13,632 bases of DNA from Candidatus Delongbacteria bacterium (lineage in GTDB: Bacteria; UBA4055), in NCBI GenBank assembly GCA_016937995.1, contig JAFGVM010000094.1:1-13632 (forward strand), given 5' to 3'. How positions within the stretch are numbered: the stretch's first letter is position 1; the number at the start of each line of letters is the position of its first letter. The notes below the pieces were generated by a model that saw only the letters and a program-made list of their open reading frames with translations, made no database searches and was not told the origin of the DNA. Shown here piece by piece: positions 2,980 to 13,189 of the stretch. The translations under genes were made by a program, and so were the position numbers.

Positions 2980-5643
2980 TTGGGAACAAAATTTCAGCAA
3001 GAACTAAGAAAAGAATTAAATTCTTTTTTTGAACAGGAAGAAAAGAAATTCTCTAAAAAAGATCTGATAAAAATAGACCTTCACTGTCATGATCACAACA
3101 GTGATGTAACTGATGAACTGCTGGGAAGAATACTTAATGTTCAGGAAACATGGCTGAAGACTGAAGATCTCGTAAATTCTTTAAGAGCAAACAATTGTGA
3201 CGTTGTAACTATAACAAATCATAATAGTGCATTATCAAATTTTCAACTGCTTGATAAAGGAATTGACGCACTTGTCGGAGCGGAATTCAGTTGTATTGTC
3301 CCTGATTATGAGATAGGAATTCATGTTTTGGCTTATGGTTTTACAAAAGAACACGAAGTTGTGATGCTTGAACTCAGAGAGAATCTGTATGATTTTCTTA
3401 AATATTGCAGAAAAAATGATATCCCTACAATCTGGGCACATCCACTTTTTCATTATAAATCACAGGGTATTCCTCCTTTTGATTTCTTCTGTAAACTATC
3501 ACTCCTTTTTGAAAGATTTGAAGTAGTCAACGGTCAGAGAAATACATGGCAGAATCTTCTTATAAAGATCTGGCTTGAAAATACAACAAAAGAAGATTTC
3601 GATGCCTGGGCAAAAAAATTTAACATAGATCCTTATGAATATTGTAACTTTCCCTATAAAAAAGTTTTTACTGGTGGTTCTGACAGCCATATGGGAATTT
3701 TTGCAGGTCAGACAGGCTCATATTTATATGTCAGAGACCTTGAGAATAGAAAGAAAAAAGAAAAGCTTTCAGATCTTGCTCTTGAAGCAATAAAAAAAGG
3801 TGATATAGCAGTTTACGGATCAAATCAGAATACTGAAAAGCTGACAGTTGCATTTATAGACTATTTTAATCAGATATGTCTGAATTTCAAAGATCCCGGT
3901 TTGAACAGATTGCTGCTACATAAGGGTTCTGTAATTGATAAGACTATTTCATTTATCATTTCAAATGCAATATCAGAGATCCAGAACCACAAAGTAACTA
4001 TCAAATTCATTGACCTTTTCCATAAATCATTTCTTGGTAAAATACCGAACCATTTTAGAAAGCTTCTTATTTCAAAAGCATATAAACCAATTTTTGATTC
4101 TGCGGTTCAAATAGCAGAAGCAGGAAAAGATAAAACTCCTGGTTCTGTAAAAAAATATTCTGAGCAGATCAATAAAATTTCAGACCAGCTTAATCATGTA
4201 TTATTTTCTAGACTGAAGAAAAAACTTGATGAAATAGATTTTGATAAAAAATTCGAGAATACTTCTCTTGATAATATTATCAGTTTTCTTGAACTCCCTA
4301 CTAATCTCAGAAAGTATTCAGGTAACAAAGAACCAAAGAACAGTAAAATGGCATATCCAGACATACCAAAGTTTCTTGATGGTCTTTCTTTTCCAATGTT
4401 GACGTCACTGATAATTCTTGCAGCAAATTTTACAAGTTCAAAAACACTTACAAAACTAAGACCTTTATACAATCAATTCGCTGAAAAAACCGGAAAACTT
4501 AAACATCCTAAAAGAATGCTTTGGCTGACAGATACTTATGGTGACAAGAATGGAGTTTCTATGTCACTACAGGCAATGCATGAAGAGATCAAAAAACGAA
4601 ACCTCCCTATTGACATTCTTGTCTGTTCAGATAAAATTAAACCTGATGATCATCTCATTGTTTTGAAGCCTGAAATGACATTTACACTTCCTTTTTACAA
4701 GCAGCAGGAGTTAAGAATACCTAATTTTCTAAAAATACATTCAATTTTTCAGCAAAATGAGTACGACAGGATAATTTGCTCTACTGAAGGAATAATGGGT
4801 CTAGCTTCACTATATCTGAAACACGCATTTTCTGTACCGACAAATTTTTATATTCATACAGACTGGATTACTTTTACTAAAGATGTTCTCGGTTTCGACA
4901 TACATGAGATCAACAGAGTAAGAAGATATCTTAGAGCATATTACGGTGCTTTCGATAAACTGTTCGTTCTTAACACTGATCAAAAAACATGGCTTAACAG
5001 TAATGAAATGGGATTCAAAGATGAGGATGTTATAGTCACAGCTCATTGGGTAGATGAGATATTCAAACCAATTGTTGACCATTTCAAAGGTCCTATGAGT
5101 ATTGATGACACATTATATTTCATGGAAGAACCCGGGAATCCGATCATTTTATATGCCGGTAGAATAAGCAAAGAAAAAGGTGTGATGGAGCTGCCTCAGA
5201 TCTACTACGGGATTAAAAAACATATCCCTGATATAAAGATCATAATCGCAGGGACCGGTCCTGCAGAAGATGAACTGAAAAAAGAATTACCTGAAGGTAA
5301 GTTTACCGGTTGGATAAACCACGATGATCTACCTGGACTCTATTCCTCTTCCGACCTTTTCATATTACCTTCTAAATTCGATACTTTCGGCTGTGTTGTA
5401 ATTGAATCTATGAGCTGCGGTCTTCCGGTAATATCATACAATACAAAAGGTCCAAAGGATATAATTCAAGATGAAAAAAATGGCTATCTTGTTGAAACGA
5501 TAGAAGATATTATTGAAAAAGCTGTTGAATATCTAAGTAATAAAAATAAATGGTCAGACTTTAAAAACAGTGCAGTAAAAAGATCAAAAGATTTTAATGC
5601 AGATAAAATAGTTAATGATTTTCTGAAAGCAAATGACCTTTAA
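2980..5643 (+). CDS. Fusion of PHP metallo-phosphoesterase and GT4 glycosyltransferase
   Basis: An 887-residue cytoplasmic protein, starting at TTG. The PHP domain (about 30-280) keeps all expected metal ligands: H35-x-H37 and D42, H81 (in TNHN rather than TDHD), E102, H115, H154 (AHP), and D235-x-H237 (SDSH). Residues about 285-510 are a helical, charged region with no recognised domain. The GT4 domain (about 512-885) shows GDKNGVS (521-527), HTD at 626-628, GRISKEKG with Arg728 and Lys733, and D801-x7-E809 in DTFGCVVIESMSCG. These are hallmarks of GT-B retaining transferases using nucleotide sugars. The STEGIMG and HTDW segments recall SqdX/MgtA-like enzymes, many of which glycosylate lipids. 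PHP domains hydrolyse phosphate esters or act in DNA-polymerase proofreading; here a sugar-phosphate phosphatase is plausible but inferred. The 3' end overlaps the GH13 gene by 11 bases. I believe similar fusions exist in other bacteria, uncharacterised. Confidence 0.9.
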   Translation: MGTKFQQELRKELNSFFEQEEKKFSKKDLIKIDLHCHDHNSDVTDELLGRILNVQETWLKTEDLVNSLRANNCDVVTITNHNSALSNFQLLDKGIDALVGAEFSCIVPDYEIGIHVLAYGFTKEHEVVMLELRENLYDFLKYCRKNDIPTIWAHPLFHYKSQGIPPFDFFCKLSLLFERFEVVNGQRNTWQNLLIKIWLENTTKEDFDAWAKKFNIDPYEYCNFPYKKVFTGGSDSHMGIFAGQTGSYLYVRDLENRKKKEKLSDLALEAIKKGDIAVYGSNQNTEKLTVAFIDYFNQICLNFKDPGLNRLLLHKGSVIDKTISFIISNAISEIQNHKVTIKFIDLFHKSFLGKIPNHFRKLLISKAYKPIFDSAVQIAEAGKDKTPGSVKKYSEQINKISDQLNHVLFSRLKKKLDEIDFDKKFENTSLDNIISFLELPTNLRKYSGNKEPKNSKMAYPDIPKFLDGLSFPMLTSLIILAANFTSSKTLTKLRPLYNQFAEKTGKLKHPKRMLWLTDTYGDKNGVSMSLQAMHEEIKKRNLPIDILVCSDKIKPDDHLIVLKPEMTFTLPFYKQQELRIPNFLKIHSIFQQNEYDRIICSTEGIMGLASLYLKHAFSVPTNFYIHTDWITFTKDVLGFDIHEINRVRRYLRAYYGAFDKLFVLNTDQKTWLNSNEMGFKDEDVIVTAHWVDEIFKPIVDHFKGPMSIDDTLYFMEEPGNPIILYAGRISKEKGVMELPQIYYGIKKHIPDIKIIIAGTGPAEDELKKELPEGKFTGWINHDDLPGLYSSSDLFILPSKFDTFGCVVIESMSCGLPVISYNTKGPKDIIQDEKNGYLVETIEDIIEKAVEYLSNKNKWSDFKNSAVKRSKDFNADKIVNDFLKANDL

Positions 5644-7252
5644 AAATTTTGGGAAATACGCTAACTGCTGGTGGAAGTACGGAGTAATATATCATATCTA
5701 TGTTTTAAGTTTTAAAGACTCAAATGGTGACGGTTACGGGGACATTAGAGGAATTATAGAAAAACTTGATCATATCATAGATCTTGGAATAACAGCTATC
5801 TGGCTTTCACCTGTATTCAAATCACCAATGAGTGATTTCGGTTATGATATAGACGATTATTATTCAATCGATCCTGTATTCGGTAAAATGAGGGACATTG
5901 AAGAGCTAATACTCAGGTGTCATGAAAAAAATATTTTCATAATTTTTGATATGGTCATGAATCATACATCTGTTAAACATAAATGGTTCACTGAATCAAA
6001 AAAATCATTAAACAGTGATAAAAGAGACTGGTATATCTGGAAAAGTGGAAAGAATGGGAAACCACCTAACAACTGGAAAACGATTTATGGTAAAACAGCC
6101 TGGGAGTATGATAATAATACAGATCAGTATTATTATCATTCTTTTCTAAAAGAACAACCTGACCTAAACTGGAGAAATCCGGAAGTAAAAAAAGAATTCG
6201 GGAAGATATTCAGATTTTGGTTGGATAAAGGTATTGACGGTTTCAGACTTGATGCTGTTAATTTTATTATAAAAGACATAAAATTACGGGAAAATCCTGG
6301 TCTGTTCGAGATCATTCTTGGTAAAAGAAAATTCTATTCTAGGAACAGATCAAGTTCTTTAAAACTGCTGCAGCATTTCAGAAAAATTATAAATTCATAT
6401 GACAACAGAATGTTGATCGGGGAAATTTTTGCACTACCTCCGGGAGAGTCCGATGTTGTTAGTTATTATATGTCAGAAGGTGATGATACTTTGAATATGG
6501 CTTTTGATTTTTCTCTCTTATTCCAGAAATGGTCTGCATCAAGTTATTTTAAAGCAATTATTAGATCATATATCAGTATGCCATCGAAAGGTTGGCCTTC
6601 GATCGTTTTTTCTAATCATGATCTTAACAGAAACATCAGTTACGATGATCAAAAAGCCAGAATAAAACTTATATTGATGTTAACTTTGAAAGGAACTCCT
6701 TTTATCTATTACGGTGAAGAAATAGGAATGAGAAATGGAATTATCAGAAAAAATGAAATTAAAGATCCAATGGGGAAAATATACTGGCCTATTTATAAGG
6801 GAAGGGACAAAGCAAGAACTCCAATGCAATGGGACGATTCTGAAAATTCAGGCTTTTCAACTGCCGCACCATGGCTACCTATAAATAAGAACTTTGAAAA
6901 TAATAATATATCAGATGAAAGATCAAAAAAAAATTCTCTTTTTACTCTTACTAAAAAACTTATCAAATTAAGAAATTCATACTCCTCATTACATAAAGGT
7001 GATTGGATTCCGTTGATAAAAGGGGAAAAAGGAATCATTGCATATTTAAGAACATATGGAACAGAAAGAACATTAGTGGTTCTTAATTTTAGTAATACAA
7101 ATAAAAAGTTAATGCATTTCAATAAAATGGAATGTGTTTTATTGCTTTCTACAGGTACAAAAAAGAGACACAAGCTACAATTCCTGAAAAATTTTGTGAT
7201 AGAACCTTATGAGGGTTTGATCTTTTTATTAAAAAAAGAAAAATACTATTGA
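5633..7252 (+). CDS. GH13 alpha-glucosidase / oligo-1,6-glucosidase-like enzyme
   Basis: A 539-residue protein without signal peptide, hence cytoplasmic. It has a full GH13 (beta/alpha)8 barrel: a calcium-loop motif DSNGDGYGD (29-37), region I DMVMNH (106-111), QPDLN (175-179), GFRLD with nucleophile Asp207, IGE with acid/base Glu264, and SNHD with transition-state Asp330. QPDLN in conserved region V is typical of the oligo-1,6-glucosidase group, which covers alpha-glucosidases, trehalose-6-phosphate hydrolases and trehalose synthase, rather than neopullulanases. The SNHDLNR segment differs from the common NNHDQPR, so substrate preference cannot be read off. A C-terminal beta domain runs from about 440. 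The ATG lies inside the end of the PHP-GT4 gene, with only a weak GAAAG upstream, suggesting coupled translation. It probably hydrolyses or transfers alpha-glucosyl units made or imported by its operon partners (inference). Confidence 0.92.
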   Translation: MTFKNFGKYANCWWKYGVIYHIYVLSFKDSNGDGYGDIRGIIEKLDHIIDLGITAIWLSPVFKSPMSDFGYDIDDYYSIDPVFGKMRDIEELILRCHEKNIFIIFDMVMNHTSVKHKWFTESKKSLNSDKRDWYIWKSGKNGKPPNNWKTIYGKTAWEYDNNTDQYYYHSFLKEQPDLNWRNPEVKKEFGKIFRFWLDKGIDGFRLDAVNFIIKDIKLRENPGLFEIILGKRKFYSRNRSSSLKLLQHFRKIINSYDNRMLIGEIFALPPGESDVVSYYMSEGDDTLNMAFDFSLLFQKWSASSYFKAIIRSYISMPSKGWPSIVFSNHDLNRNISYDDQKARIKLILMLTLKGTPFIYYGEEIGMRNGIIRKNEIKDPMGKIYWPIYKGRDKARTPMQWDDSENSGFSTAAPWLPINKNFENNNISDERSKKNSLFTLTKKLIKLRNSYSSLHKGDWIPLIKGEKGIIAYLRTYGTERTLVVLNFSNTNKKLMHFNKMECVLLLSTGTKKRHKLQFLKNFVIEPYEGLIFLLKKEKYY

Positions 7253-7810: not shown

Positions 7811-9814
7811 CTATTTTTTTAAGCTGTTCTTCGCTACTATATAATAGAATTTCTTTGCGTCAGTATAAGGAGTAACATACTGATTTGTTGCTACATTCAC
7901 TTCAAATGAGAATGTTCCGTTAGGATCATCCGACGAATATACATCATAACTGTCTGCATCAGTCGATTCGTCCCAGCTTATTGTAAGGTTCGTTCCAATT
8001 ACACTTGTACTAATATTCAAAGGTGTTGAAGGAATAACTTCCCCAGGGATTGTGTAATCGATATGCAGTACCGGTGGATATCCACCCTCGTATGGATCTG
8101 CAACACGCTCGTCAGAATCTATATCTTCCTGCCAGAAAATAAAACTCATGCTGTTACCGCTGGCCCATCCTTCTCTGTCAACTACTTCCTGAATAACATT
8201 ACTCATATCAGGAAAATAATATACTGATTCAGCTGACCAGGATGGTGGATTTATCCATTCAATGTAATTTGCAGTTAAAGTTCTGTCAGAAACATTATAA
8301 TCGCTCGTTGTAAATGCAGGTGAATTATCAATATCTTCCGCAGCGAACAAAATATGATTTAAAGTTTTTGTATCTGATTCATCAGCTCTGACTTCAATAT
8401 AGGCTGAATCTATAATTGCACCCTGAGGAATGTTAATATTCTGGAATCTGATTCCTACTTTTTGATCTCCTCCGTCATCACAGAATTCCAAATCACTGCT
8501 GTCAGTATACATACTACCACCACTCTGTTCTTCAACATCATCCATTCCAGAAATAACAGAAATACTTATCGATGCTGAATTACTTATAGTAATGAAAGCT
8601 GTTTTTGTTTCAGTATCAGATCCGAATTCATTAGATGTTGTAAGTGAAACTTCATAAGTCCCTAATGATGAATATGAAACTGTAGGATTCTGTTCAGTAC
8701 TTGTAGGAGGAGTACCTCCGGTAAATGTCCATGACCATGATGTAGGAGCATTTGCAGAATTATCAGCAAAATTGATCATTTCACCAGGAATTGCATTGGT
8801 TTTATCTGCAACAAAGTCGGTTACCGGAGGTGTCTCTGAGTATGTTTCAAATCCAAAAGGCTGTGTATATGTACTACCGTATGTATTATATAATATTGCT
8901 CTTACAAATTGTACGTCAGTATAGGCCGAATAATCAAAAGTTGTTCCACTTCCAACAGTAGTTGTTCCTGGACCGATCCAGTCTATACTTGTGTATCCGG
9001 TTGCTGTTATAGTTATTGTTTTATTTAGATCATCAACTGTTATATCTGAGATTCTTGGCACAAGAGCATCACCTGAACGACCGGGTTCATAACAAAAATA
9101 GAATGCTCCTTCCTGTTGTGACGTCCTTAATGCATCTTCTGTTTTTTCAGGCATAAGCATAAACTGATAGTTTCCATATAAATGATCTGTAGTATGTTTG
9201 TCGTCATTTGAATAACCCCACACCAGTTTACTATATTGAGAGAAATAATTTTCATTTATATTGTCCCAGAGCTCTCTGTCATCAGGATATCTGTCACCCT
9301 GATTGTAGACTTCCAGTCCAACGCAAGACGGATAATTTGAATACCATGGAATATACCATGCCCAGTCATTTGGTGTATAATAACGTCCCGGATGATTTAT
9401 CAGAGAAAGTCCACCGCTTGCATCAACATGAGGAATCCCGTCTTCAATACCTGCATCACTGCTAGTAAAATCATAAAAAGCATTCATGTGATGAGAGTTA
9501 GAGTATTCATTTCCTCTTACTGCTATCATTCCCGGATTTGACGGCCATGACCATGTAGTATAATCATGGTCTGTAATTGCCAGGATATCATAACCTGCTG
9601 AATAATACTGATCTATAACTTCAGATGGAGAATCAGCCCCGTCACTGTTGGTTGTATGGGTGTGAAAATTTGCTTTGTACTGACCGTATGTACTCCAGTT
9701 AACATTTTCGTATGGATTCAATGTTAAATTCACATACGATTTAACTACTTGACCATTAATGATCTGTACGATCATTAATAATATCATTGCTGAACATTTG
9801 AATATATTTTTCAT
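7811..9814 (-). CDS. Secreted PHP-domain protein with PKD, DNRLRE and FN3 modules
   Basis: A 667-residue exported protein. Residues 1-21 form a signal peptide ending NGQ. The PHP domain (about 44-250) has an intact metal-ligand set: H51-x-H53, D58, D82-H83, E103, His109 nearby, H141 (NHPG), and D205-x-H207 (DDKH). A PKD domain follows (about 331-411, with WSWTF and the YEVSLTTSNEFG strand). Next come a DNRLRE-type beta domain (about 418-588) and a fibronectin type III domain (about 595-662). No type IX sorting domain is present, so the protein may be periplasmic, surface-bound or exported by another route. Secreted PHP proteins probably hydrolyse extracellular phosphate esters; the substrate is unknown. 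The start at 9814 is preferred over the ATG at 9856 because GGAGGG (9823-9818) precedes it and the signal peptide begins there. It is divergent from the TonB receptor and ends at the structured element. Confidence 0.9.
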   Translation of the reverse strand: MKNIFKCSAMILLMIVQIINGQVVKSYVNLTLNPYENVNWSTYGQYKANFHTHTTNSDGADSPSEVIDQYYSAGYDILAITDHDYTTWSWPSNPGMIAVRGNEYSNSHHMNAFYDFTSSDAGIEDGIPHVDASGGLSLINHPGRYYTPNDWAWYIPWYSNYPSCVGLEVYNQGDRYPDDRELWDNINENYFSQYSKLVWGYSNDDKHTTDHLYGNYQFMLMPEKTEDALRTSQQEGAFYFCYEPGRSGDALVPRISDITVDDLNKTITITATGYTSIDWIGPGTTTVGSGTTFDYSAYTDVQFVRAILYNTYGSTYTQPFGFETYSETPPVTDFVADKTNAIPGEMINFADNSANAPTSWSWTFTGGTPPTSTEQNPTVSYSSLGTYEVSLTTSNEFGSDTETKTAFITISNSASISISVISGMDDVEEQSGGSMYTDSSDLEFCDDGGDQKVGIRFQNINIPQGAIIDSAYIEVRADESDTKTLNHILFAAEDIDNSPAFTTSDYNVSDRTLTANYIEWINPPSWSAESVYYFPDMSNVIQEVVDREGWASGNSMSFIFWQEDIDSDERVADPYEGGYPPVLHIDYTIPGEVIPSTPLNISTSVIGTNLTISWDESTDADSYDVYSSDDPNGTFSFEVNVATNQYVTPYTDAKKFYYIVAKNSLKK

Positions 9815-10207
9815 AAACCCTCCGTTTTTTTCTTTTTCCTGTAAATTAAAATACAAATGTTAATTCAGTATTTAATTGGTTTGAGAAAACAGTGATATTT
9901 ATGTTAATATTCTGTATGTGCCATATATAATAAAATTTACACTTTATAAGTATTATATATTACTTATAAAGTTTTATTAGTTTAATAACAAATTCATTAA
10001 TAATTAATAACCGCTGATATCGATTATAAGTAATCCTGAAAAAACTTATTCCTAACATGTTAAAAATAATTATACCTGCTTAACAAAATCTAATCACTTA
10101 TCTAATTCAATCTTAGCATATAAATAACAGCATTTTAAGGTTCGTCTAAGATTTATTTAACAATCTGTGGACATATTTATCCTGTAAATTTTAACTCAGG
10201 AGAAAAA
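9815..10207. other. Divergent AT-rich intergenic region of 393 bases
   Basis: This gap separates the minus-strand secreted PHP gene from the plus-strand TonB receptor gene. It must hold promoters for both, but I see no convincing -35/-10 or -33/-7 pair. What stands out is the 12-bp inverted repeat at 9941-9972, a third copy of its inner motif at 10024-10032, and an A/T repeat at 9996-10010. The receptor's AGGAG is at 10198-10202. No open frame with a ribosome binding site and no RNA gene is apparent. Confidence 0.6.
9941..9972. repeat. Perfect 12-bp inverted repeat, possible operator
   Basis: ACTTTATAAGTA at 9941-9952 and TACTTATAAAGT at 9961-9972 are exact reverse complements around an eight-base spacer. 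The inner nine bases, TTATAAGTA, recur at 10024-10032. The repeat lies between divergent genes, about 130 bases from the PHP start and 236 from the receptor start. It could be a protein-binding site or an AT-rich hairpin. Confidence 0.55.
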
Positions 10208-13189
10208 ATGGATAGCCGTAAAATTAGAATTTCTATCAGGAGCTTTTTAATACTGTTCCTGATTATCACTACTTCGATAACAGCACAAAGATTTCAGTAT
10301 GGTAGACTGAAAGGAACTGTAAAATGTAACGAGTCAAATTCACCTTTGGAAGATGTTAATGTTTACCTTGAAAATGGTTACGATGAACATACTATAGGTT
10401 GCGCTACTAATGAAGAAGGTGTTTACTTCATAAACAACATTCCTCCGGGCAAATATACTTTTATCGCCGAATGTCTTGGTTATGAAAGAATTGAGATCGA
10501 AGATTTTGAAATTAAAGGTAATGAATACAAATATTATGATTTCGATATGTCTATCTCAGTAATGGAACTGGAAGGCATAGAGATCGTTGCGGAAGCTGAC
10601 AAAACAACAAAGGAAGTTCAGCTTATATCAAGAAAGGAAGAAGTTAAAATAATGGATGCGATCAGTTCTGAAGAGATCTCTTCTTATGGCAGTAGTGATG
10701 CTGCATCAGCTATGGAACACGTTACTGGTGCTTCTGTAGAAGGAGGTAAATATGTTTATGTCAGAGGTTTAGGTAACAGATATTCAACTGTTCACCTTAA
10801 TGGTGTAGAACTCCCTTCTGCTGATCCTGACGAAAATTCATTCCAGCTGGACCTTGTGTCATCATCAGTTATGGACAACATAACAACTTCAAAGTCCTTC
10901 ACACCGGACAAACCCGGAAATTTTGTAGGAGGTCTAATTGATATTAATACAAAAAGTCTTCAGGAAGATAAACAGCTTGATGTCTCTGTTTCGAACGGTT
11001 ATAACACAAATACAACATTCAATGATTATTTGACATATCAGGGTGGTGATACGGACTGGCTTGGATATGATGACGGTACCAGAGATATCCCTGATGAACT
11101 ACAGAATGTGGACCTAAAAGAGCTGATCGCAATTCCTATTGTAGGTACATCCAATGACAGTATTCATGATGCTCAGACAGCTAAGGTTCTTGATCTTCAT
11201 CATTATTCTAAAGCATTTAACAATATAATGACCCCAATTATGGAATCTGCACCTGTCAATCAGAGTTATAATCTTAATTACGGGAAAAAATTCAGATTTT
11301 CATCATCCAGCTTTTTTGACCTTATTTCTACAATTAAATATTCAAGAAAATTCAGTTCCTACGATGACAGGATAATTAACAATTATATTCTTACCGGAAC
11401 AGGAGCAGATGAATTATCAAATGAACTGGAATTCATTGAAGTTAAAGGTGAGGACAACGTCAATATTAACGGACTTCTTAACCTTCAGTATAATTTAACA
11501 AGAGATCATAGTTATTATTTTAATACAGTCTTTACACAAAGTGCCACTGATATTGCAAGATATATATCCGGTCATTATTACGATGGCAATATGGATCCGG
11601 AAGCTACCTATGAAACAAGAGTACTCAAATGGATCGAAAGACAGCTTATTACCAATCAGTTAAGAGGTAACCACAGGTTTACAAAGTTCTTTGATACAAG
11701 TTTTGACTGGAATATGGCTTACAGCCTTACATCTCAGGACGAACCTGACACAAGATTCTTCAGCGACCATTATATGCTTGAATATGATGTTGATGTTTAT
11801 GAAGATCCTGTTACAGGTGACCTTGTAGTAGATACTTTGGGAACTTACAACAACTATTTTATAACTCCGTCTCTTTACAAACAACCTTCAAGGTATTTCA
11901 GGGAAATGGATGAGGACAGTTATAACATTGATCTAAAATTCACTTTGCCTTTCACTATTTATAAAAATGCGGATTCGAAATTTAAAACAGGATTTTACTT
12001 TTCTGCAAAAGACAGAACATTCAGAGAAAGAGTATTCCAGATAACTAATCAGGAACAGCTTGCATATAATGATTATGATGCAGACCCTTTTTCGTATTTT
12101 TCAGACGGTATGGGTATTATTGATGTAACTCCAGTTGGACCAACGAATGTAAGATATACATGGGGAAATTATCTTGTAGATGCTTCTGAAGACAGATCGA
12201 ACTATGACGGACATCAGTATGTAACTGCATTTTATGGAATGACTGAAGTACCTGTCATTGACAGAATTGATCTTACAATAGGAGCACGTTATGAGATAAC
12301 TGACATGGAAGCTGCTACTCAGGATTCAACATATGAACAGGGAAAAATTAAAGAAACTGATATTTTACCTGCGGGAATTTTAAACTATAGAATACTTGAT
12401 AATCTCATTGCGAAACTGTCTTACGGGAAAACACTGGCAAGACCATCAATAAGAGAACTGGCTCCTTTCCCTTCACTTGATTTTGCCGGTGGTTTCTTTT
12501 TTACAGGAAACAATGAACTTGAAAGAACTTTAATAGACAATTATGACGTAAGATTCGATTTTTACGAAAGACCGGGTGAATTATATTCATTAAGTTTCTA
12601 TTATAAATACTTTAAGAATCCTATAGAAAAAGCTTTCCTCAATGATAATAAAGAAACTCAGTATCAGAATGTACCGAGAGCTGAAGTAAAAGGTATTGAG
12701 ATAGAAGTCAGAAAAGATCTTGATCAGATACATCCGTTCTTAAAATACTTTTTCGTATCATCCAATTTTTCATATATAATTTCGGAAGTTAAGATCCCTG
12801 AAAGTGAAATGACTGCCATACTTATTGCAGATCCTGATGCAGATGACACGAGACCTCTACAGGGTCAACCCGAATACATTTTTAATTTCTATGTACAGTA
12901 TCAGAACAGAGATACTGAAACACATGCTAGTATCAATTACAATCTAACCGGAGAAAAACTTTCTGAGAACAGTAAAGGTGGAACACCGGATATTTACGAA
13001 CTGCCTAAACATAATCTAAACTTTTCTCTAAGTCAGAAATTCTGGGATAATTATTCTGTAAAATTCGGTATTTCCAATATTTTGAATTCTGCTACTGAAA
13101 AAGTCTATCACTATAAAGGCGAAGATTACATTTTTACAAAATATAAAACAGGCAGCGAATATTCATTGTCTTTAAGCTATTCGCTTTAA
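10208..13189 (+). CDS. TonB-dependent outer-membrane receptor with carboxypeptidase-regulatory-like N-terminal domain
   Basis: A 993-residue receptor. Residues 1-27 form a signal peptide ending SITAQ. Residues 33-115 form a carboxypeptidase D regulatory-like domain (LKGTV...PLEDVNVYLE...GVYFINNIPPGKYTFIAECLGY). A TonB-box-like LEGIEIVAEA follows at 121-130. The plug (about 146-250) carries VRGLGNRYSTVHLNGVELPS at 185-204 and TPDKPGNFVGGLIDI. The beta-barrel extends to a C-terminal strand ending SLSYSL. Such receptors import large or scarce substrates across the outer membrane with TonB-ExbBD energy; no SusD partner is seen, so glycan uptake is not implied. The RGLGNRY plug type is common in FCB genomes beside secreted beta-rich proteins, as here. 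The start has AGGAG five bases upstream. The substrate cannot be predicted. Confidence 0.93.
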   Translation: MDSRKIRISIRSFLILFLIITTSITAQRFQYGRLKGTVKCNESNSPLEDVNVYLENGYDEHTIGCATNEEGVYFINNIPPGKYTFIAECLGYERIEIEDFEIKGNEYKYYDFDMSISVMELEGIEIVAEADKTTKEVQLISRKEEVKIMDAISSEEISSYGSSDAASAMEHVTGASVEGGKYVYVRGLGNRYSTVHLNGVELPSADPDENSFQLDLVSSSVMDNITTSKSFTPDKPGNFVGGLIDINTKSLQEDKQLDVSVSNGYNTNTTFNDYLTYQGGDTDWLGYDDGTRDIPDELQNVDLKELIAIPIVGTSNDSIHDAQTAKVLDLHHYSKAFNNIMTPIMESAPVNQSYNLNYGKKFRFSSSSFFDLISTIKYSRKFSSYDDRIINNYILTGTGADELSNELEFIEVKGEDNVNINGLLNLQYNLTRDHSYYFNTVFTQSATDIARYISGHYYDGNMDPEATYETRVLKWIERQLITNQLRGNHRFTKFFDTSFDWNMAYSLTSQDEPDTRFFSDHYMLEYDVDVYEDPVTGDLVVDTLGTYNNYFITPSLYKQPSRYFREMDEDSYNIDLKFTLPFTIYKNADSKFKTGFYFSAKDRTFRERVFQITNQEQLAYNDYDADPFSYFSDGMGIIDVTPVGPTNVRYTWGNYLVDASEDRSNYDGHQYVTAFYGMTEVPVIDRIDLTIGARYEITDMEAATQDSTYEQGKIKETDILPAGILNYRILDNLIAKLSYGKTLARPSIRELAPFPSLDFAGGFFFTGNNELERTLIDNYDVRFDFYERPGELYSLSFYYKYFKNPIEKAFLNDNKETQYQNVPRAEVKGIEIEVRKDLDQIHPFLKYFFVSSNFSYIISEVKIPESEMTAILIADPDADDTRPLQGQPEYIFNFYVQYQNRDTETHASINYNLTGEKLSENSKGGTPDIYELPKHNLNFSLSQKFWDNYSVKFGISNILNSATEKVYHYKGEDYIFTKYKTGSEYSLSLSYSL

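Follow-up and report, generated by a model that had tools for sequence, protein, structure and literature searches.

The stretch of Candidatus Delongbacteria DNA analyzed here (13,632 nucleotides, hereafter the window) carries a gene whose 887-residue product joins an intact PHP phosphoesterase domain, through a probably helical middle region, to an intact GT4 glycosyltransferase. We favor, with somewhat better than even confidence, the view that this fusion is a Pho-regulated enzyme of membrane-lipid remodeling, the PHP domain supplying diacylglycerol and the GT4 domain glycosylating it. The data supporting this proposal are the intact fused domains, the recurrence of the fusion, the kinship of its glycosyltransferase with Agt/SqdX-like enzymes, gene neighborhoods containing Pho and phosphorus-free-lipid genes, and Pho-box-like repeats in its promoters; it is because these are taken together that we suggest the role. 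We found no description of a PHP–GT fusion in the open-access literature, and a paper on the PhoB regulon of D. vulgaris names no such fusion gene.

The fused gene and its domains

The operon and the parts of the fused gene are as follows.

2399-2977, + strand: operon gene 1, lipid-binding protein of START-like type whose N-terminus resembles a signal peptide (PF01852 E 1.9e-7, above cut-off)
2968-2973, + strand: Shine-Dalgarno sequence AAGGAG, read from the sequence, 6 nt 5′ of TTG-2980
2980-5643, + strand: fused PHP–GT4 gene, an uninterrupted ORF of 887 codons with a TTG start
3067-3825, + strand: PHP phosphoesterase domain, residues 30-282 (ligand conservation; hhalign to canonical PHP)
3826-4506, + strand: conserved middle, residues 283-509, likely helical (alignment, hydropathy, low-confidence helices)
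4507-5109, + strand: GT-B N-terminal (acceptor) half of GT4 (N-half profile matches)
5110-5640, + strand: GT-B C-terminal (donor) half with R728, K733, D801 and E809 (PF00534 E 1.8e-32)
5633-7252, + strand: GH13 alpha-glucosidase-like enzyme, catalytic motifs intact (PF00128 E 6.5e-132)

An in-frame ATG lies upstream at 2902; we prefer TTG-2980 as the start because AAGGAG stands 6 nt before it and because a TTG at the equivalent position is the start codon in the relatives L008 and L007. The GH13 gene, whose product is closest among solved structures to alpha-glucosidases (E 1e-115), overlaps the end of the PHP–GT4 gene translationally. The START-like gene also precedes the fusion in L008 and L076, the full order START – PHP-GT4 – GH13 is seen again in L008/G005 and G006, and G010 has PHP-GT4 – GH13; GH13 is co-operonic and overlapping in those Delongbacteria loci that extend far enough. 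One Candidatus Delongbacteria MAG and one UBP11 MAG are the named relatives, both at about 70% identity. In two further members of the clade, a six-hairpin-glycosidase-like gene of 798-881 aa overlaps the PHP-GT4 start (L095:5904-8300, L097:10943-13588); it has a weak rhamnosidase-type match and parallels the GH13 partner in Delongbacteria.

The sequence-only reading of this DNA had taken the gene for a true fusion with both catalytic halves intact, and the relatives bear this out. An assembly or frameshift artefact was considered as the source of the fusion and dropped, since about 27 long ORFs from unrelated families carry it; the sole break seen is in G006, where PHP and GT lie on adjacent ORFs. 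Profile search found the PHP+middle module in 38 of 386 sampled bacterial genomes, which represent roughly 30 families; in most cases a GT4 is part of the same ORF, which is then about 790-920 aa long. In a maximum-likelihood tree, the window protein groups with those of Delongbacteria and, with 100/100 support, with L067, L095, and L097, which come from two other families. Given this spread and this placement, the architecture has been kept over long distances. A search of viral contigs returned no relatives.

The PHP domain of the window protein has all seven ligands (H35, H37, H81, E102, H154, D235, H237) in the motif set HxH, H, E, H, DxH of the PHP superfamily (PF02811), and all seven are complete in 26 of 30 family members. 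PF02811 does not match the window protein at the Pfam gathering threshold, and the best family member reaches E 0.0017; we regard the domain as real despite this sub-threshold score because the family PHP profile matches, by hhalign, both a canonical PHP protein encoded in the window's genome (probability 94.7%, motifs I-III aligned) and a standalone 332-aa PHP protein (99.6%, E 5e-25). That standalone protein belongs to a second, unfused PHP–GT partnership, in which it is immediately followed by a GT28-like glycosyltransferase gene (L077:8090-10211, L078:8214-10308, L079:8157-10255). The TNHN variant of the second PHP motif, to which the earlier reading drew attention, is present and proves to be a feature of the window's clade: residue 80 is Asn in 6 of the 30 members and Asp in 24, and the ligand H81 is unchanged.

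The GT4 assignment is certain, PF00534 matching above its cut-off, and the R/K...E-x7-E-like catalytic motif of GT4 is present as R728, K733, D801, and E809. These four residues are complete in 25 of the 30 members; of the other five, one has Glu at D801, one is changed at two sites, and three are without the GT C-half. Losses occur on the PHP side as well. PHP catalysis is evidently dispensable in some members, since the site is degenerate in L068, where several ligands are lost, and the motif-II His is absent from L070, L071, and L073; the degenerate domain of L068 also indicates that the glycosyltransferase can persist without a PHP site. Selection in turn seems to act on the PHP domain independently, because the three members lacking the GT C-half (L080, L069, and L091) keep it.

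The middle region, described as uncharacterized in the earlier reading, matches no Pfam family in the window protein (residues 283-509) and is found in every member, at about 160-230 residues. AlphaFold modeling of the whole chain from a three-sequence alignment gave a pLDDT of 39, and in this low-confidence model the middle is mostly helix. Hydropathy and alignment mark its end adjoining the GT domain as a hydrophobic segment, and the window's clade has an additional hydrophobic insert at residues 466-484, a patch that, judged by its composition, may be in contact with the membrane. Profile searches of the PDB gave no match for PHP+middle; the rest of the protein matches GT4s only.

Kinship of the glycosyltransferase half

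Among the collected GT4s, those scoring best against the GT-half profile include an A. baumannii glycosyltransferase adjoining a PAP2 phosphatase, a P. aeruginosa glycosyltransferase adjoining PlcH-PlcR, one lying immediately downstream of SqdB (UDP-sulfoquinovose synthase E 4e-139), which we call SqdX-like because of that position, and a Sphingomonas glycosyltransferase right after a gene labelled UDP-2,3-diacylglucosamine diphosphatase. This label is often given to PlcP-like proteins, and the Sphingomonas gene is presumably one of them. From gene order, we infer that the P. aeruginosa enzyme is PA0842/Agt2. Agt2 has been shown to produce glucuronosyl-diacylglycerol (GADG) (PMC8528852). The comparison set was picked in part by similarity to the query, and the argument accordingly lies in how the genome's own GT4s rank and in what partners the best matches have: the window's genome has seven other GT4 loci, which rank below the lipid glycosyltransferases, and a profile of the N-terminal (acceptor) half matches Agt2, the PlcP-adjacent enzyme, and the SqdX-like enzyme and none of the GT4s at those seven loci. 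A search of plasmids for full-length homologues found none; the matches there are to GT halves only, and these are annotated Agt relatives. It is well supported that the GT half is closest by profile to glycerolipid glycosyltransferases of the Agt/SqdX-like kind, and by similarity it may share their specificity.

This kinship bears on the analogy drawn by the sequence-only reading, which compared the fusion with sucrose-phosphate synthase/phosphatase (SPS/SPP). On such a model, the glycosyltransferase would make a phosphorylated soluble glycoside such as a compatible solute or a sugar, the PHP domain would dephosphorylate it, and the GH13 enzyme would turn over an alpha-glucoside. The co-operonic, overlapping GH13 gene of the Delongbacteria loci and the six-hairpin-glycosidase-like gene beside two further clade members are what one might expect of such a pathway. 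Against it, TIGR02472 covers only 102 C-terminal residues (782-883) at 47.8 bits against a cut-off of 576, the N-half profile matches lipid glycosyltransferases, and HAD/SPP phosphatase domains are absent from the Pfam and NCBIfam scans. Pho-box-like promoters and Pho/Ols neighbors are also ill suited to a solute pathway. We consider this model improbable and the analogy probably wrong, the GT half being nearest to glycerolipid glycosyltransferases rather than to SPS and the neighborhoods being those of Pho and lipid genes.

Promoters and gene neighborhoods

Known PhoB boxes have an 11-bp period. A repeat of this period lies upstream of the operon.

2341-2368, + strand: Pho-box-like triple direct repeat CTAACG-n5-TTTAAT-n5-CTAACA, 11-bp period

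It scores 15/18 (shuffle p 0.005-0.007). In L007, L008, and L076, the corresponding position holds three CTRACA hexamers with an 11-bp period, scoring 17-18/18, a value that no shuffle attained, so that all four of the Delongbacteria operon promoters examined have 11-bp CTRACA repeats. The CTRACA consensus was built on three operon promoters, and the pst/pho promoters and those outside Delongbacteria are independent tests of it. Repeats are also found 5′ of phoB, pstS, and a phoU-linked porin in the window's genome (p 0.000-0.015); only 14 positions in 72 kb of that genome score at least 15, and nine of these are in the promoters just named or upstream of the window's TonB receptor. Outside Delongbacteria, six of about 30 promoters (L086, L088, L089, L090, L094, and L098) reach p<=0.03, where about one would be expected. 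The published PhoB box consensus is CTGTCATNNNNCTGTCAT (PMC8528852).

Elsewhere in the window, Pho-box-like repeats scoring 15-16/18 occupy 10135-10173, immediately 5′ of a TonB-dependent receptor gene (10208-13189). A divergent gene (7811-9856, − strand) encodes a secreted protein that combines a PHP domain (PF02811 E 1.8e-4, below threshold) with a PKD domain, possibly an extracellular phosphoesterase, and has a homologue downstream of the operon in L008. The receptor's repeats and this divergent secreted PHP gene suggest that more of the window may be phosphate-regulated. A further gene (82-1614, − strand) encodes a secreted cyclophilin-like protein ending in what appears, by eye, to be a type IX secretion sorting signal.

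Genes of the Pho system accompany the fusion in several relatives. In L008/G005, genes for a response regulator and a kinase run divergently from the operon; the closest curated counterparts of these two are PhoB (E 2e-69) and PnpS/PhoR, calls that fall below strict cut-offs. At this locus phoU, with a pstB-like gene beside it, is 9.7 kb off. The same regulator adjoins the fusion gene in L007, and PstB and PhoU are close by in L082/L084, above cut-off in L082. The repeats and the phoBR/pst neighbors together make phosphate-starvation (Pho) control of the fusion operon a well-supported prediction.

Genes for phosphorus-free lipids are found beside others. An OlsB/OlsA-like pair is divergent from the fusion gene in L089 and L090. 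In L080, genes run in one direction for PAP2, GT4, a PHP protein, GT4, a lysylphosphatidylglycerol-synthase-type membrane protein (LPG_synthase_TM), and OlsF (E 3e-209, above cut-off).

L080:9419-13615: tandem of a GT4, a PHP–middle–GT-N protein without a GT C-domain, and a second GT4, in the OlsF/PAP2/LPG_synthase_TM cluster

The sequence-only reading had held that halves occurring as separate proteins amid unrelated gene neighborhoods would count against a joint function; this locus of genome G057 presents another picture, its PHP–middle–GT-N protein directly adjoining separate GT4s within an OlsF/PAP2 cluster. In L088, L089, and L090, the gene after PHP-GT4, which overlaps it or follows at once, encodes a radical SAM protein of about 420-430 aa.

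Enrichment was assessed in 31 fusion-bearing genomes, counting neighbors up to 12 kb from the PHP gene. PF13444 (OlsB/OlsF type), present as one copy in each of eight genomes, lies within that distance in three (0.07 expected; P 5e-5, or 0.002 with related genomes counted once); phoU does so in four (0.53 expected; P 0.002, or 0.016 with related genomes counted once), and PAP2 in three (0.35 expected; P 0.006). The P values are modest once related genomes count singly (0.002-0.016), and most loci have neither a Pho nor a lipid gene within 10 kb. None of the 31 genomes has a strong PlcP homologue; the best match is a weak metallophosphoesterase at 32% identity, whereas accepted PlcPs share 46-47% identity (PMC8528852).

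These neighborhoods weigh on a further explanation, in which the protein is a glycosyltransferase for a cell-surface or lipid-A type polysaccharide and its PHP domain is regulatory or vestigial. The degenerate PHP site of L068, a locus near LpxB and DUF374 genes, would fit, as would the extra GT4 genes and the DUF2334 protein found at some loci. A vestigial domain would hardly keep its seven ligands in 26 of 30 members, however, or outlast the GT C-half in three of them, and no capsule or O-antigen cluster is evident around most members; we give this explanation little credence.

A proposed role in lipid remodeling, and known systems

Replacement of phospholipid by glycolipid is a major bacterial response to phosphate scarcity, and its genes serve as markers in environmental surveys. 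We think it probable that the fusion carries out such a replacement. Active PhoB would bring about transcription of the operon; the PHP domain would hydrolyze a glycerolipid phosphoester (a phospholipid, in the style of phospholipase C, or phosphatidate) to diacylglycerol and phosphate; and the GT4 domain would move a sugar from a nucleotide-sugar onto the diacylglycerol so made, giving a phosphorus-free glycolipid that stands in for phospholipid. At the membrane, the middle region would keep the two sites next to each other; binding or shuttling of lipid would fall to the START-like partner. In this scheme, what we infer is the PHP substrate, the sugar donor, the channelling, and the contact of the middle with the membrane. 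Since the neighborhoods are those of Pho-regulon and phosphorus-free-lipid genes, the order of reactions is likely the reverse of that in the SPS analogy, phosphoester cleavage coming first and glycosylation second. The GH13 enzyme and the six-hairpin-glycosidase-like gene of L095/L097 fit poorly, having no obvious place in glycolipid synthesis; these partners could turn over or extend the glycosyl head group, or the clade could make a different glucoside.

The part played by the PHP domain is the least secure element of the scheme. The substrates known for PHP enzymes are soluble nucleotides and phosphomonoesters, and we know of no PHP-family phospholipase or phosphatidate phosphatase; the earlier reading was right to call a PHP domain coupled to sugar transfer unusual. 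The protein might instead be a Pho-regulated glycolipid synthase whose PHP domain, rather than making diacylglycerol, hydrolyzes the UDP/UMP by-product or another small phosphate ester, driving glycosyl transfer forward and recycling the phosphate. The glycosyltransferase, promoter, and neighborhood evidence fits this equally, the known substrates of PHP enzymes count in its favor, and the PAP2 phosphatases adjoining some members could provide the diacylglycerol. PAP2 is near three members only, however, and the partners of the related stand-alone glycosyltransferases (PlcH, a PlcP-like gene, PAP2) are lipid-directed, which makes diacylglycerol supply the parsimonious role for the PHP domain; we think by-product hydrolysis unlikely, though less so than the soluble-glycoside or polysaccharide explanations. 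The boldest form of the lipid-remodeling proposal, that the PHP domain is a phospholipase C or phosphatidate phosphatase feeding its fused GT4 in a widespread, undescribed class of enzyme that evolved independently of PlcP, we hold tentatively, at slightly less than an even chance.

If the proposal is correct, one protein does a job known elsewhere from two separate enzymes, many anaerobic and uncultured lineages have a second, unrelated solution that plcP-based surveys have missed, the PHP superfamily gains a lipid substrate, and diacylglycerol channelling within a single chain becomes directly testable.

The closest known counterpart is the PlcP–Agt system of Sinorhizobium/Agrobacterium, roseobacters, and P. 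aeruginosa (PA3219-PA3218, PA0842), in which PlcP cleaves phospholipid to diacylglycerol and Agt, a second protein, adds glucose or glucuronate (PMC8528852). The fusion resembles it in the genomic coupling of a phosphoesterase to a GT4, in a GT half that is profile-close to Agt2, in its association with phosphorus-free lipids, and, at the sequence level, in PhoBR-type control with Pho boxes. It differs in that its phosphoesterase is a PHP domain rather than a calcineurin-type PlcP, and in that a single chain, with a conserved middle of 160-230 residues, combines both predicted activities. By analogy, the fusion would work like PlcP–Agt; it is not a member of that system, since it lacks the PlcP phosphoesterase by which the system is defined. 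A genetic precedent in anaerobes for the glycolipid role may be found in Dde_3613 of Desulfovibrio alaskensis G20, a glycosyltransferase required for all MGDG and GADG at low phosphate, the mutant ('agt') losing all glycolipids under phosphate limitation (PMC5193443). It is termed an Agt homologue and has many homologues in anaerobes, and a PHP domain is nowhere mentioned (PMC5193443). The link with SqdX/SqdB sulfolipid synthesis is that the GT half detects a SqdX-like glycosyltransferase immediately downstream of SqdB; unlike there, a UDP-sulfoquinovose synthase was not seen near the fusion, and a PHP domain is attached. The SPS/SPP fusions likewise join a GT4 to a phosphoesterase, but theirs is a HAD phosphatase rather than PHP, the SPS similarity is confined to the C-terminal half of the GT, and the gene context is other. 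Finally, the pairs of L077-L079 place a related PHP protein immediately before a glycosyltransferase gene; they differ from it in being separate proteins, with a glycosyltransferase that is Glyco_tran_28_C-type and not GT4.
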